Shown here: positions 58,744 through 64,000 of the stretch, one piece after another
How positions within the stretch are numbered: position 1 is the stretch's first letter
Layout of the letters: each line of letters begins with the position of its first letter
Made by a program: the position numbers and the translations under genes
From: Phaeacidiphilus oryzae TH49
Lineage (GTDB): Bacteria > Actinomycetota > Actinomycetes > Streptomycetales > Streptomycetaceae
Reading direction: 5' to 3'
Length of the DNA stretch: 64,000 nucleotides
Assembly (NCBI RefSeq): GCF_000744815.1
Contig: NZ_JQMQ01000005.1
Coordinates: 1,062,055 to 1,126,054 of the forward strand
Notes under the pieces: generated by a model
Seen by the model: the letters and a program-made list of their open reading frames with translations, nothing else
Databases searched by the model: none
Told to the model about the DNA's origin: nothing

Positions 58744-58981
58744 CGGGGCGGACGGCGACGGCCCGACGAGGACGGCCCGACGGCGGTGGCGGCACGACGA
58801 CGGCAGCGCTCGCCATTTGCTGACAGACCGTCAGTTCCGCCCGGCAGCCCGCTTCCAGAGCCGTCCGCTCCCCCGTAATCCGCTCGTGCGGGGGATTGCG
58901 GAGCGGCCGCGCCTGTGGGCGCGGTCCGACGCGCTAACGTTGGCCGCGGTTGCGACGGCATTCGACGGCAGGGGAGTACGC

Positions 58982-61582
58982 GTGGTTCGGGTGACGCTGG
59001 ACGGGGCCTCCTCGCGCTGGCGGCGCAGGTCCACCGAGTTCGGCTCGCTCGCCGAGGCGCTGGACGCCGCCGAGCCCGGCGACACCCTCACCCTCTCCCC
59101 CGGCACCTACCGGGAGAGCGTCCGCCTGGACAAGGCGGTCTCGCTGCGCGGCGCCGAACCGCGCGGCTCCGTCGGCGCCGCCAGGATCGAGCCGCCGATC
59201 GGCAGCGCCCTCACCGTCACCGCCGCCGCCGAGGTGCACGGGCTGCATCTGGAGGCGAGCGACCCGTCCGCGCCCGCGGTCCTGCTGCACGGCTGCGAGG
59301 CCGAGTTGACCGACTGCCGGGTGGAGGCCCGCTCGGCGGTCGGCGTCGAGATCGGCGGCGGCGCCCGCCCGACGCTGCGCGACTGCGTGGTGGAGAACCC
59401 GTACGGCCTCGGCGTGCTGGTCGCCGACGGCTCGGTGGCGCTGCTGGAGGGCTGCGAGATCGCGGAGACCGGCCGGGCCGGGGTGGCCGTGCGCGGGGGC
59501 AGCGCCCGGCTCGAACGCTGCCGGGTGCACAACGCCTCCGGCGCCGGGCTGGCGATCTCCGGCGAGGGCAGCACGGCGGAGGCCGAGGGCTGCGAGTTCT
59601 ACGAGGTGGACGGCAGCGGGGTGGCCGCCGAGAAGCGCGGCGCCGGCCGGCTCACCGACTGCTCGGTGCACCGGGTCACCGGCAACGGGCTGACCCTGGA
59701 CTCTGGTGCCGCCCTCGACCTGGTCGGCTGCCGGCTGCACGAACTCCCGGAGAACGGCGCCGACCTGCGCGGGCGCTCGGTCCTGACGATGGAGCGGACC
59801 ACCTTCCGCCGCTTCGGCCGCAACGGGCTGTCGGTATGGGACGCCGGCAGCCGGGTCCAGGCGGTGGACTCCGACCTCCGCGAGGCCACCGGCGACTATC
59901 CGGCGGTCTGGATCAGCGACGGCGCGGCGGTGCGGCTGGAGGGCTGCCGGGTGGAGGACGTCCCGGACGCCCTCTTCGTCCTGGACCGCGACTCCTCGGC
60001 CTCTGCCGTGGACAGCTCCTTCGAGCGGATCAGGTCGGCCGGGGTCTCGGTCAGCGACGGCGCCCGGATCACCCTGGAGCGCTGCCGGATCCAGGAGGCC
60101 GGCACCGGCCTCTGGTTCCGCGACCAGGGCAGCGGCGGCGAGATGACCGCCTGCGAGATCGCCGGGGTGTCCACCGGGGTGATCGTCACCCGGGGCGCGG
60201 ACCCGGTGCTGCGGGACTGCACGGTGCACGACTCGACCGACGCCGCGGTCTACGTCTCGGCGGGCGGCGCCGGCACCTTCGAGGACTGCCGGTCCAGCCG
60301 GGGCAGCGGCTACGGCTTCCACGTCATCGACGGCTGCGCGACCAGGCTGGTCCGCTGCCGGGCCGAGCAGCACGCCCGGGGCGGCTTCGAGTTCGCCGGC
60401 TTCGAGGGCGGCGCCGGTCCCGCGATCGAGTCCTGCGTCTCGGACGACGCGCGGACCGCGGGCTCCAGGGACGCGGCCGGCGCCCCCGCCGGCCGCGGAG
60501 CCGCGGGCAGCTTCCCGCCGGGCACCACCGGTTCCGCCGGCTCCAGCGGTTCCACCGCCCTCACCGCCCGCGGCGGTTCACCCGCCGGCGCCGGCTCCCG
60601 CGCCTCGGGCGCCGGTGGCGGGCCCGGCGCCGGCGCGTCCGCCGGGGCGCTCACCCTCGGCGCGGACACCGTCGCGCCCGTCCCGGGCACCCACGTCCCC
60701 ACCCCGCGCGGGATCTCGGCCCCGCCGCCGCTGGTCGACTCCGCCGCTGCCGCCGCCATCGGCCCGATCCCGGACTGCCGCCCGGTCGACGAGGCGCTGG
60801 CCGACCTGGACGCGCTGATCGGCCTGGAGACGGTGAAGCGCGAGGTCCGCACGCTGATCGACCTGATCTCGGTCGGCCGCCAGCGGGAGCGGGCCGGCCT
60901 GCGGGCCCCCTCGCTCCGCCGCCACCTGGTCTTCACCGGCTCCCCCGGCACCGGCAAGACCACCGTCGCCCGCCTCTACGGCGAGATCCTGGCCGCCCTC
61001 GGCGTCCTCCAGCGCGGCCACCTGGTCGAGGTGGCCCGGGTGGACCTGGTCGGCGAGCACATCGGCTCGACCGCCATCCGCACCCAGGAGGCCTTCGACC
61101 GGGCCCGCGGCGGGGTCCTCTTCATCGACGAGGCGTACTCCCTCTCCCCCGAGGACGGCGCCCGCGACTTCGGCCGCGAGGCGATCGACACCCTGGTCAA
61201 GCTGATGGAGGACCACCGGGACGAGGTCGTCGTCATCGTCGCCGGCTACACCGGCGAGATGGAGCGCTTCCTCTCCTCCAACCCCGGTGTGGCCTCCCGT
61301 TTCTCACGCACCGTCACCTTCCCGGACTACTCCGCCGAGGAGCTCCTGGAGATCACCACCCGGCAGGCCGGCGACCACCAGTACAACCTCTCGGAGCAGA
61401 CCGCCAAGTCGCTCCTCGCCCACTACGCCTCGATCCCCCGCGGTCCCTCCTTCGGCAACGGCCGCACCGCCCGCCAGGTCTTCGAGACGATGGTCGAGCG
61501 GCACGCCGTCCGGGTGGCCCGCACCGAGTCCCCGACGACGGAGGACCTCCAGCTCCTCCTCCCCGAGGACCTCCCCGACTGA
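58982..61582 (+). CDS. Right-handed beta-helix repeat protein fused to a CbbX-type AAA ATPase
   Basis: 866 aa from GTG 58982 (AGGGGAG upstream). Residues 1-490 are a long parallel beta-helix: about 18-20 repeats of roughly 22-24 residues, each with a Cys/Arg turn ([24 protein letters not shown]), as in pectate-lyase folds. A Gly/Ser/Ala linker (about 500-600) leads to an AAA module with Walker [17 protein letters not shown] (about 653), Walker [12 protein letters not shown] (about 715), sensor [14 protein letters not shown] and Arg finger region [13 protein letters not shown]. The CbbX/EccA class remodels protein complexes; the helix may be the substrate-binding arm. No signal peptide, so probably cytosolic. 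Confidence 0.9.
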
Positions 61583-61665: not shown

Positions 61666-62193
61666 TCAGTTACAAGGCGACTCCACATGCACGGCCGCGC
61701 CCCTCCGGCCGCCGTCGGGTGGCGCCCAGACGACCGTCCGCGACAGCAGTTCGGCGAGCCGGCGCACCTCTCGTTCCAGCTCGGCGATCCGCCGGTCCCG
61801 GTCGTCCGCCCTCGGTACGACGGGCCGTGCGGCCGGTCTCACCATTCCGTTCCGGGCCAGGACCCGCTGGACGGTGGAGGGCGAGGGGAGCGGCCGCACC
61901 CCCCGCCGGGCCAGCTCGCGCAGCAACCGCCGTGCGCCCCAACCGGGTTGCTCCTCGCGGAGGGCGCAGATCAGCGACTCGACGGCGGCGAGGGTTCGCT
62001 GCGGACTGCGGTGCGGTCTGCGGGAGCGCTCCCGCAGACCGTCGAGGCCCTCCTTCAGATAGCGGTTCCGCCATCGGTGGAGGGACTGCCGGGACACCCC
62101 GTAGCGGTCCGCCACCTGGGACACCGGCGCCCCGGCGATGATCTCCATGACAGCGCGGTAGCGGTGGTCCGCGCTGAACGTCGACTCCCCCAT
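61666..62193 (-). CDS. Stand-alone transposase-like helix-turn-helix protein
   Basis: 175 aa from ATG 62193. Residues 1-60 form a homeodomain-like HTH (RYRAVMEIIAGAPVSQVADRYGVSRQSLHRWRNRYLKEG). A second HTH of the IS481/IS3 type follows (ESLICALREEQPGWGARRLLRELARRGVRPLPSPSTVQRVLARNG), then a short coiled-coil-like heptad (RRIAELEREVRRLAELLSR) and a tail. It resembles the DNA-binding front of a transposase but has no DDE catalytic domain, and no inverted repeats are evident. It may be a domesticated regulator; it points away from the peptide/hydroxylase pair. Confidence 0.82.
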   Translation of the reverse strand: MGESTFSADHRYRAVMEIIAGAPVSQVADRYGVSRQSLHRWRNRYLKEGLDGLRERSRRPHRSPQRTLAAVESLICALREEQPGWGARRLLRELARRGVRPLPSPSTVQRVLARNGMVRPAARPVVPRADDRDRRIAELEREVRRLAELLSRTVVWAPPDGGRRGAAVHVESPCN

Positions 62194-62581: not shown

Positions 62582-62728
62582 ATGGAAGAGAGCTTCTCGT
62601 TGTCGCCCGAGGAGATCGAGGTCGACCGGCCGCCGCTGGCCACGGCCGAGTTCGTCATCTCGGACAACGACCCGAGCGACCCGGTCGTCGTCATCTCGGA
62701 CAACGACCCGTCCGACCCGGTCATCTGA
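62582..62728 (+). CDS. Short repeat peptide, putative precursor of a modified peptide
   Basis: 48 aa from ATG 62582, preceded by a strong CGGGAGGG. Residues 1-24 (MEESFSLSPEEIEVD then RPPLATAEF) look like a leader. Residues 25-35 and 37-47 are two identical copies of VISDNDPSDPV separated by one Val, and the peptide ends VI. The peptide is acidic and has no Cys. The stop is 4 bases before the ATG of the JmjC/cupin hydroxylase, so the two genes are one unit. A short leader plus repeated Asp/Asn/Ser/Pro core beside one modifying enzyme is the layout of ribosomally made, post-translationally modified peptides. No named family comes to mind; the function is inference. Confidence 0.75.
   Translation: MEESFSLSPEEIEVDRPPLATAEFVISDNDPSDPVVVISDNDPSDPVI
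62654..62722 (+). repeat. 33-bp direct repeat encoding the peptide core
   Basis: The units 62654-62686 and 62690-62722 match at 31 of 33 positions and are separated by GTC. The two differences (GAGC versus GTCC) are synonymous, Ser AGC versus TCC, so the amino-acid repeat is identical while the DNA has begun to differ. Confidence 0.92.
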
Positions 62729-62732
62729 TCGA

Positions 62733-63962
62733 ATGACGGTCACGCACGAGCGTGGGAAGGCCGCGTCCGCGGCGCGGCCTTCCCTCGACCTCATCCGACT
62801 GCTGCGCCCCATGGACCCCGAGGTCTTCCGGCGGGACTACTGGGAGCGCAAGCCCCTGGTCCTCCACCGCGAGGACCCCGACTACTACGCGGACCCGCTG
62901 ACCCTGCGGGACGTCGACCACATTCTCGCCACCTCCAGCCTCCGGTCCTCCGACCTTCGGCTGGTCGTGCGGGGCAGGGAGATCCCGCTTTCCGAACTGG
63001 TGACCGCCGGCACCGGCGGGCCCGCCAACGGACTCGAGGTCCTCTACGACCAGTACCGCAGCGGCTCCACCGTGGTCTTCAAGTTCCTCCACGAACGCTG
63101 GGAGCCACTGGCCGCGATGTGCCGGGGGCTGTCCGCCGAGTTCAGCGCTCTCTTCCAGGCCAACGCCTATCTCACTCCGGCCGGGGCGCAGGGGCTGACC
63201 ACCCACCACGACACCCACGACGTCTTCGTCCTGCAGATCTCCGGTTCGAAGCACTGGCGGCTGTACGACTCGCAGGTCGAACTGCCGCTGCAGTCCCAGC
63301 CGTTCGCCCGCCCGGCGGACGGCCCCGGCGCCCCGGTGCGGGAGTTCGACCTCCGGGCCGGCGACCTGATGTACATGCCGCGGGGCACGGTGCACGACGC
63401 CACCTCCAACGAGGAGGCCTCGCTGCATCTGACCGTCGGCGTCCTTCCGGTGCTCTACGCCACCCTGGTCCGGGAGGCGGTCGAGCAGGCGCTGCGGGAG
63501 GACGTCCGGTTCCGCCGGGCGCTGCCGCCCGGCTTCGCCCGGGACCCCGAGCTGCGGGCGGAGGCCGGACGGCGGCTGGCCGAACTCCTCGGCGAGCTGG
63601 CCGGCGCGGGCGACCCGGCCGAGCTGGTGGACCGGGCGGTCAGCCGGGCCATGGCGGGTCGCCAACCCGTGCTCGGCGGCCATCTGGTGGACCTGGAGCG
63701 GCTCCGCGAGCTGGGCCCGGACTCCGGCCTGCGGCGCCGGCGGGATCTGCTGTGGCAGCTCGCGGTGGACGAGGCCGGAGTGCGGCTGGAATTCCACGGA
63801 AAGGTGCTGCGCTTCCCGGCGAGGGTGCACGAGGACGTGCGGTTCGTGGCCGAGGCCGAAGCCGAGTTCACCGCACGCGACCTGCCGAGCGGGCTGGACG
63901 CCGAGGGCCGTCTGGTGCTGCTCCGCCGGCTGGTCCGGGAGGGGCTGCTCACCCTCGTCTGA
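62733..63962 (+). CDS. JmjC/cupin_4 2-oxoglutarate-dependent hydroxylase
   Basis: 409 aa from ATG 62733. The N-terminal part (LLRPMDPEVFRRDYWERKPLVLHR) is typical of cupin_4/ribosomal-oxygenase proteins. The jelly-roll iron site is H158-H-D160 in GLTTHHDTHDVF with distal H221 in MPRGTVHDAT. K173 in ISGSKHWRLYDS is the expected 2-oxoglutarate ligand. The helical C-terminal half (about 240-360) and the final winged-helix-like domain match the RoxA/NO66 layout. This family hydroxylates Arg, His or Asp/Asn side chains of proteins and, in some clusters, peptides. The adjacent repeat peptide is the obvious candidate substrate; this is inference. The start ATG overlaps no Shine-Dalgarno, so coupling to the peptide gene is likely. 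Confidence 0.9.
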   Translation: MTVTHERGKAASAARPSLDLIRLLRPMDPEVFRRDYWERKPLVLHREDPDYYADPLTLRDVDHILATSSLRSSDLRLVVRGREIPLSELVTAGTGGPANGLEVLYDQYRSGSTVVFKFLHERWEPLAAMCRGLSAEFSALFQANAYLTPAGAQGLTTHHDTHDVFVLQISGSKHWRLYDSQVELPLQSQPFARPADGPGAPVREFDLRAGDLMYMPRGTVHDATSNEEASLHLTVGVLPVLYATLVREAVEQALREDVRFRRALPPGFARDPELRAEAGRRLAELLGELAGAGDPAELVDRAVSRAMAGRQPVLGGHLVDLERLRELGPDSGLRRRRDLLWQLAVDEAGVRLEFHGKVLRFPARVHEDVRFVAEAEAEFTARDLPSGLDAEGRLVLLRRLVREGLLTLV

Positions 63963-64000
63963 CGGGCCCGCCGTCTCCGGCTCGTCCGAGGCGGCGTCAG

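Follow-up and report, generated by a model that had tools for sequence, protein, structure and literature searches.

We analysed a 64,000-nucleotide stretch of Phaeacidiphilus oryzae TH49 (the window; G000:C5:1062055-1126054; this 7.8-Mb genome was the sole representative of its genus in the searches). Close to the right-hand end, a gene for a short Asp-rich repeat peptide directly precedes a gene for a JmjC-type oxygenase. This precursor-hydroxylase pair is real, and it is part of a larger cluster with an exporter and of a widespread precursor family that is apparently undescribed. Most probably (about 0.82), the peptide gives rise to a ribosomally synthesised and post-translationally modified peptide (RiPP), its leader being held by the C-terminal domain of the enzyme and its core hydroxylated by the NO66/MINA53-like domain, most likely on Asp. 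This reading is carried by the conservation of the precursor, its tight coupling to the enzyme gene, the intact catalytic residues and a conserved cluster. The features of the pair, in window coordinates, are:

62582..62728, + strand: gene (stop included) of the 48-residue precursor peptide, with ribosome-binding site GGGAGGG, conserved in each of the five close relatives that were found
62597..62623, + strand: leader motif S-L-S-P-E-E-I-E-V (residues 6-14), from an alignment of 19 precursors
62654..62725, + strand: core, consisting of two VISDNDPSDPV units (residues 25-35 and 37-47) and the end, with 6 Asp and 2 Asn; substitution rates for the core are given below
62733..63962, + strand: JmjC_2/cupin_4 Fe(II)/2-oxoglutarate (2OG) oxygenase of 409 residues, from Pfam, alignment and an AlphaFold2 (AF2) model
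63666..63962, + strand: C-terminal domain of the oxygenase (residues 312-409), with the strand-helix order of a RiPP recognition element (RRE) in AF2 models and fold searches

The peptide, MEESFSLSPEEIEVDRPPLATAEFVISDNDPSDPVVVISDNDPSDPVI, is read from an ATG at 62582, 6 bases 3' of the ribosome-binding site, to a TGA stop at 62726-62728. The good ribosome-binding site and the two identical 11-residue units of the original prediction were both found; the DNA of the units differs at two bases, both silent. In the alignment of 19 precursors (A1), M1, S6 and I12 are invariant and L7 is nearly so. The stop lies 4 bases from the oxygenase ATG at 62733. Ratios of nonsynonymous to synonymous substitution rates (dN/dS) were 0.13–0.49 for the whole gene in the 10 pairs of five loci, small counts from a short gene, and 0.07–0.53 over 10 pairs for the core alone; Streptomyces clavuligerus was omitted because its leader is shifted by one residue. 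The peptide gene is under purifying selection, so the neutral pattern that would have counted against the prediction is not seen. A chance open reading frame (ORF) is ruled out, since the close relatives retain a homologue at equal spacing and selection is purifying. No scanned precursor scored above a Pfam or NCBIfam cut-off; weak matches to NF045800 (E 0.2) and PF24174 (E 0.051) fell far under theirs. The locus has the make-up of a RiPP locus: a short encoded precursor, a conserved leader with a separate core, and an adjoining modifying enzyme.

The pair was found at six independent loci (group 1): the window, plasmid pSCL4 of S. clavuligerus (L004, one of 16 records of that species), Streptacidiphilus jiangxiensis (L034), S. 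fulvorobeus (L035), Streptomyces sp. CBMA291 (L036) and genome G336 (L084). The enzymes of the five relatives are 66–74% identical to that of the window. At all six loci a 48-residue peptide ends 4 bases before the ATG equivalent to the window enzyme start; the gene caller or annotation chose a later start in L004, L034 and L035 (87 bases beyond the matching start in S. clavuligerus). Both the leader, SL-x-[PS]-[ED]-E-I-E-V, and the core motif, [VA]I[SA]D[NP]DP-x-D in two copies, are conserved in the group. The expectation that the peptide would be kept beside orthologous oxygenases thus holds for all five close relatives found, and different Asp-rich peptides stand beside most of the remoter ones.

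The oxygenase matches Pfam JmjC_2 (PF08007, E 7.7e-27, 93.8 bits against a cut-off of 22), and its stop codon ends at 63962, 38 bases short of the window end. It had been predicted to be intact, and H158, D160, K173 and H221 are indeed invariant across a 45-sequence alignment; by analogy, H158, D160 and H221 would be the iron ligands and K173 the 2OG residue. With a profile score above the curated cut-off and an HxD...H iron triad, it can be counted among the PF08007 hydroxylases. T161, H162 and D163 are also invariant in the 45 sequences, making an HxDTHD signature where MINA53 has HYDDVE, a difference that may be relevant to substrate choice. The AF2 model (mean predicted local distance difference test score, pLDDT, 89.8) has the fold of the ribosomal-protein oxygenases NO66, MINA53 and YcfD: it matches NO66 (4ccn) with E 1.2e-29, a TM-score of 0.70 by query length and a root-mean-square deviation of 5.6, and MINA53 too along the whole chain.

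The topology of the C-terminal domain is RRE-like in the models (pLDDT 90.6 for the domain alone). Strands at 341-346, 349-354 and 357-361 are followed by helices at 363-374, 381-383 and 390-402, the order that an RRE requires, with a middle helix of only three residues; the domain folded alone gave the same. When this domain was searched by itself, NO66, MINA53 and YcfD ranked first, followed by many leader-binding RiPP proteins, among those listed ThcOx (E 0.013), the PbtF RRE (E 0.017), TruD, TbtB, PqqD, MccB, TbiB1 and McbB. Structure titles call PbtF an RRE and name TbiB1 and MccB as leader complexes; most of these proteins carry RREs.

Two further features of the window flank the pair:

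61666..62193, - strand: divergent helix-turn-helix (HTH) protein (HTH_32/IS481-like HTH; Pfam HTH_32 E 1.3e-16), a likely cluster regulator
63997..64000, - strand: 3' end of a convergent S9 prolyl-oligopeptidase gene, mostly past the window (full gene C5:1126051-1127976)

The original prediction had allowed for a protease or exporter past the window, and both are there, which overturns its description of the pair as a minimal precursor-plus-hydroxylase unit. The stretch beyond the window (L002) holds the convergent S9 gene, whose product keeps the Ser motif GGSYGG and the His motif GHG. Next come genes for a divergent ABC exporter and for a two-component pair of histidine kinase and response regulator, and also for a 140-residue protein without Pfam match, a protein with a peptidoglycan-binding domain and a MacB-type ABC pair. 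Peptide and oxygenase belong to a full cluster, because all six loci carry the S9 peptidase, the ABC exporter and the two-component system, in one order downstream. An HTH homologue, 57–66% identical to that of the window, occupies the same divergent position in all seven group-1 stretches searched (the six independent loci). No transposase catalytic domain is among its Pfam matches, and it scores 103.9 bits against the IS481 model, under the cut-off of 224. We had considered transposon debris upstream of the pair; the partial nature of the IS481 match and the positional conservation make a regulator more likely.

Known RiPP classes were also considered for the cluster. A multinuclear non-heme iron-dependent oxidative enzyme (MNIO), B12 radical S-adenosylmethionine (SAM) enzyme or arginase of the biphenomycin type was found neither among the eight downstream proteins scanned nor in the divergent HTH gene, and the same eight proteins included no TldD protease, ATP-grasp (graspetide) ligase or lanthionine synthetase. 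Membership of the graspetides and lanthipeptides was rejected on this basis, as was a biphenomycin-type cluster, the core here being SDNDPSDP and not FRF. A defence system was likewise rejected: PADLOC gave nothing for the peptide, the oxygenase or the S9 protein, and the six models matched by the ABC protein (best mad3, E 3e-31) are read as reflecting a shared ATPase domain.

The enzyme has a match at E<=1e-30 in 51 of 394 genomes of the family, and at E<1e-90 in 14. We studied 11 second-tier loci (L085-L095), with enzymes 46–51% identical to that of the window. Nine of these have different D/N-rich peptides with a related leader, such as MAKSLNPEDITVV...DDNDSNDSGG...DDTD, MTKSIKDDEIKVS...NDNDWGWQDGGDDDTGDHDNW and MAEEYSLDAASINIS...DDRDW. 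There are two precursor copies in L089 and L090 and three in L094. An ABC-family protein is encoded downstream of the enzyme in 8 of the 11, as judged by clustering, with a Pfam check for that of L089 only. L089 also has two M16 peptidase genes, L094 a homologue of one (by clustering), and L091 a kumamolisin-type protease gene ~3.4 kb off. A profile of the 19 precursors matched 13 of the 394 family genomes at E<=0.01. Twelve of these (E<1e-5) are genomes that had supplied profile rows, so that the specificity of the profile is informative while its sensitivity is by construction; the thirteenth, G156 (E 0.0022), has no JmjC gene among the called neighbours of the match and was taken as chance. 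None of the 380 family genomes without a strong enzyme match (E<1e-90) matched the profile at E<1e-5.

Sequence patterns of the window enzyme led to a set of 50 loci (named loci), which for that reason are not a random sample. They come mostly from Thermoleophilia, Acidimicrobiia, Frankiales and other Actinomycetota metagenome-assembled genomes, with single records filed under Myxococcales, Melainabacteria, Acidobacteria, Thermoanaerobacterales and Dokdonia. At least 250 bases of upstream sequence were available for 46, and the other four were set aside. An ORF of 25–140 residues with at least 20% D+N lies directly upstream of the enzyme in 43 of the 46, against 3 of 347 control genes from the same loci. 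One of the 43 (L070), 317 bases distant and without a ribosome-binding site, we consider a chance match. The three misses are L034, with a real peptide whose D+N is barely under the limit, L040, with an acidic-tail ORF seen by eye, and L048, which is partly masked. Leaders of the remoter peptides are typically TTLTDDEIxT or TLRDEDIxT, with cores such as DADDTDADADDTDA and GGDADQGDSNETQVDPAGSDPAG.

A different partner gene was noted at these loci. Of the remoter named loci, 47 were scanned, and 26 of these have a member of one protein cluster downstream; the two members checked are Suc_Fer-like (PF06999). Such genes lie, for instance, at L041 9139-10017 and L075 2104-2979. A profile of the cluster matched in the stretches of 33 of the 47, and in 86 of 197 loci overall, many of which overlap; the same profile search found it absent from the window clade and the second tier. 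The protein is perhaps an electron donor for the JmjC enzyme.

In the class as a whole, 394 genomes were sampled, and 129 have a match to the enzyme profile at E<=1e-30. From that search, 69 loci make up the class sample: the top 29 apart from the window, plus 40 chosen by hand down the list. Its upstream-peptide rule (D+N at least 18% or D+G >35%) is looser than that for the named loci, and followed sight of Asp-Gly repeats. An Asp-rich short peptide is directly upstream in 53 of the 69, whereas the rule picks out 21 of 524 control genes at 79 other loci; 29 of the 53 have a leader-like motif by a loose pattern. Among loci with a bit score of at least 287 the peptide is present in 40 of 41, and HxDxHD is seen in 66 of the 69 enzymes. 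Sixteen loci missed the rule (L147, L170-L174, L176, L178, L180, L182, L183, L186, L187, L192, L193 and L197); by eye, six of them have short peptides (L174, L178, L182, L186, L187 and L193; that of L186 is ...EEASDNTGGRSDMNDS), and L147 has a shifted frame of a long repeat. Three further peptide types were found: MALDDDDITT followed by EGPADGGSNPEGHDGGADGTA repeats, MDPIEVEVEDLAEVTSRDITAGGDNDGTDSSSDFI, and ...VRSRAEQPSDGGSTGKGDLND. The L140 peptide, MAETKTLKMDEIQVETAPAADPQFLICDPDPSDDCWIVCNPNYCY (start set by eye), bridges to the window type.

A quick tree of 121 enzymes left out L084, L092, L151, L160 and L180, along with any match no longer than 280 residues. In it the window enzyme clusters with the remaining four rows of group 1 (support 100), and this set with ten second-tier rows and L140 (support 99). 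The Suc_Fer-bearing rows amount to one change on the tree, with low support (61). Long-branch warnings were given for L070, L170, L171, L192, L054 and L040.

The steps from leader binding through hydroxylation and its site to proteolysis, export and regulation we infer as follows. The peptide would be the ribosomal precursor of a RiPP, its leader, SL-x-P-E/D-E-I-E-V, being captured by the JmjC_2 enzyme through its RRE-like C-terminal domain. The NO66/MINA53-like catalytic domain would then hydroxylate side chains of the core, most likely the beta-carbon of Asp and possibly Asn. In the window clade, the S9 peptidase may cut off the leader or trim the core, and the ABC transporter may export the product; the HTH protein, two-component system and MacB-type genes would serve in regulation or producer protection. 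Acidic hydroxylated repeats suggest metal binding (Ca2+ or Fe3+). Asp is favoured as the target since it alone occurs in every one of 67 hand-chosen cores (33 have Asn, 43 Pro and 18 His), a lead and no proof. The 67 precursors comprise the 19 of A1, 23 of the 43 named-locus peptides and 25 from the class sample, with near copies dropped and the last 55% taken as core.

Several points weigh against this reading. The count of Asp in every core is largely circular, the remoter peptides having been selected for Asp/Asn or Asp/Gly content, and both upstream-peptide rules were set after examples had been seen. Just 13 of the 28 lower-scoring class-sample loci satisfy the rule, and two of the 11 second-tier loci, L088 and L092, have no recognisable precursor. 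Close solved relatives of the enzyme hydroxylate His, and remoter ones Arg. Z scores of the leader-binding matches to the C-terminal domain are middling (6.5–7.2), in a range that possibly means a common arrangement only; a methyltransferase, 8hkr (Z 7.4), outranks them, and other unrelated rows fall in the same range. NO66 and MINA53 share the C-terminal domain, yet to our knowledge are not RiPP enzymes.

The alternative that survives best keeps the same pair and changes its chemistry, to Asn or Pro hydroxylation, a crosslink or a dehydrogenation. We hold this to be possible, though distinctly less probable than hydroxylation of Asp. In its favour, an alpha-ketoglutarate-dependent enzyme of a RiPP pathway crosslinks Cys to Tyr (Xia 2025, as described in PMC12636437), and the JmjC protein BipG hydroxylates ornithine (Orn); the window core, moreover, has conserved Asn and Pro beside its Asp. 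The counts of residues in the 67 cores speak for Asp instead, with the selection bias just noted.

Very unlikely is a peptide that serves as an antitoxin, chaperone or metal-buffer partner, whose acidic tail loads iron or keeps the enzyme inactive. The very acidic, repetitive peptide would suit such a role, as would the neighbourhoods of the remoter loci, where no protease is among the ten neighbour genes scanned and the Suc_Fer-like gene is common; the leader/core layout, the multiple precursors found close to a single enzyme in L089, L090 and L094, the RRE-like domain, and the peptidase and exporter of the window clade would not. Least likely of all is a ribosomal-protein hydroxylase of the NO66/MINA53/YcfD type behind a regulatory or unrelated small ORF: MINA53 and NO66 are the best solved relatives, but the peptides are diverse in core yet coupled to the enzyme across wide taxonomic distance, peptidase and exporter genes accompany it in the window-type cluster and L089, and its signature is not that of MINA53.

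A wider conjecture extends the preferred reading, Asp hydroxylation of a leader-bound RiPP precursor, to the whole phylum: tandem-Asp peptides would be turned by the leader-guided JmjC-RRE enzyme into beta-hydroxyaspartate arrays, general metal-binding polymers in most lineages and exported bioactives in Streptomycetaceae. Such products would be ribosomal equivalents of the beta-hydroxyaspartate siderophores and calcium-dependent antibiotics of nonribosomal origin. We think this rather improbable as it stands.

Compared with NO66 and MINA53 (PDB 4ccn, 4bxf), the window enzyme shares the whole-chain fold, including the C-terminal domain, and its iron ligands and 2OG lysine align; those enzymes hydroxylate His of ribosomal proteins, whereas this one is coupled to Asp-rich peptides. 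Its RRE-like domain may bear on how the NO66/MINA53 C-terminal domain originated. The JmjC proteins BipG and BpmG, which hydroxylate Orn in biphenomycin (PMC12707348, PMC12257519), are likewise Fe(II)/2OG enzymes paired with a ribosomal precursor peptide. Biphenomycin differs in its FRF-type substrate, in the Orn made by an arginase, and in having an MNIO, a B12 radical SAM enzyme and a TldD protease in the cluster. The novelty claimed in the original prediction stands for the precursor family, within the open-access literature, and falls for JmjC RiPP hydroxylases as such, which biphenomycin had already provided. No description of these precursors was found in the open-access literature searched, a search that left subscription papers largely beyond its reach.

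A 2025 RRE-Finder survey describes PF08007-RRE fusions in fish and algae, with bacterial homologues in RiPP-like contexts (PMC12710340). The window enzyme similarly joins a JmjC PF08007 domain to an RRE-like one; the accessible part of that paper names no precursor, core motif or cluster, whereas here there are precursors, a leader motif, a distribution and partner genes. Such fusions would thereby gain a candidate substrate class. Cupin-4 enzymes adjoining NHLP-domain precursors are mentioned in a sponge metagenome paper (PMC9426513). Beta-hydroxylation of Asp, as proposed here, is described in RiPPs for the nitrilobacillins, where it is the work of MNIOs (PMC13060819), and for SmaO (as described in PMC13097080); PesHI, an MNIO, works with a partner protein, and SmaO/SmaX act in a graspetide cluster, whereas no MNIO or graspetide ligase is among the scanned proteins of the window-type cluster. 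If our reading is true, the system would be among the commoner peptide-modifying systems of actinomycetes and would offer a leader-guided enzyme for iterated side-chain hydroxylation; it is testable directly in Streptomyces clavuligerus.

Some minor observations concern the wider enzyme family. Tandem-repeat peptides such as EGPADGGAAGTPGVHDGGADGGA, of variable repeat number and some of >100 residues, lie directly upstream of the JmjC gene in L121, L123, L126, L166, L167 and most of L131-L159. L174-L197 stand apart as an enzyme clade of their own; most have HWDDHD and PRGxWH motifs, and many are accompanied by very short peptides like MDPIEVEVEDLAEVTSRDITAGGDNDGTDSSSDFI. In L127 (6151-13459), a pair of JmjC paralogues shares the stretch with an S9-like gene (26% identity to that of the window), and a 30-residue ORF lies between.

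Two second-tier loci have unusual arrangements. In L092 (G089:C3:1235190-1236389), a single TGA interrupts the frame of the JmjC match, and the stretch showed no recognisable precursor; the cluster is possibly decaying. In L088 (28-10561), the JmjC relative belongs to a run of genes that includes Lant_dehydr_N, ATP-grasp, 2OG oxygenase and short-chain dehydrogenase/reductase genes, continued by acetyltransferase, carbamoyltransferase, amino-acid kinase and RimK-like genes. This run is suggestive of peptide modification, possibly a carrier-peptide pathway like that of the peptide aminoacyl-tRNA ligases (PEARLs); no precursor was recognised in L088, nor among the genes called in L118. Within the window itself, a 921-residue frame at 58817-61582 resembles, by eye, a set of right-handed beta-helix repeats with an AAA-type ATPase domain after them.

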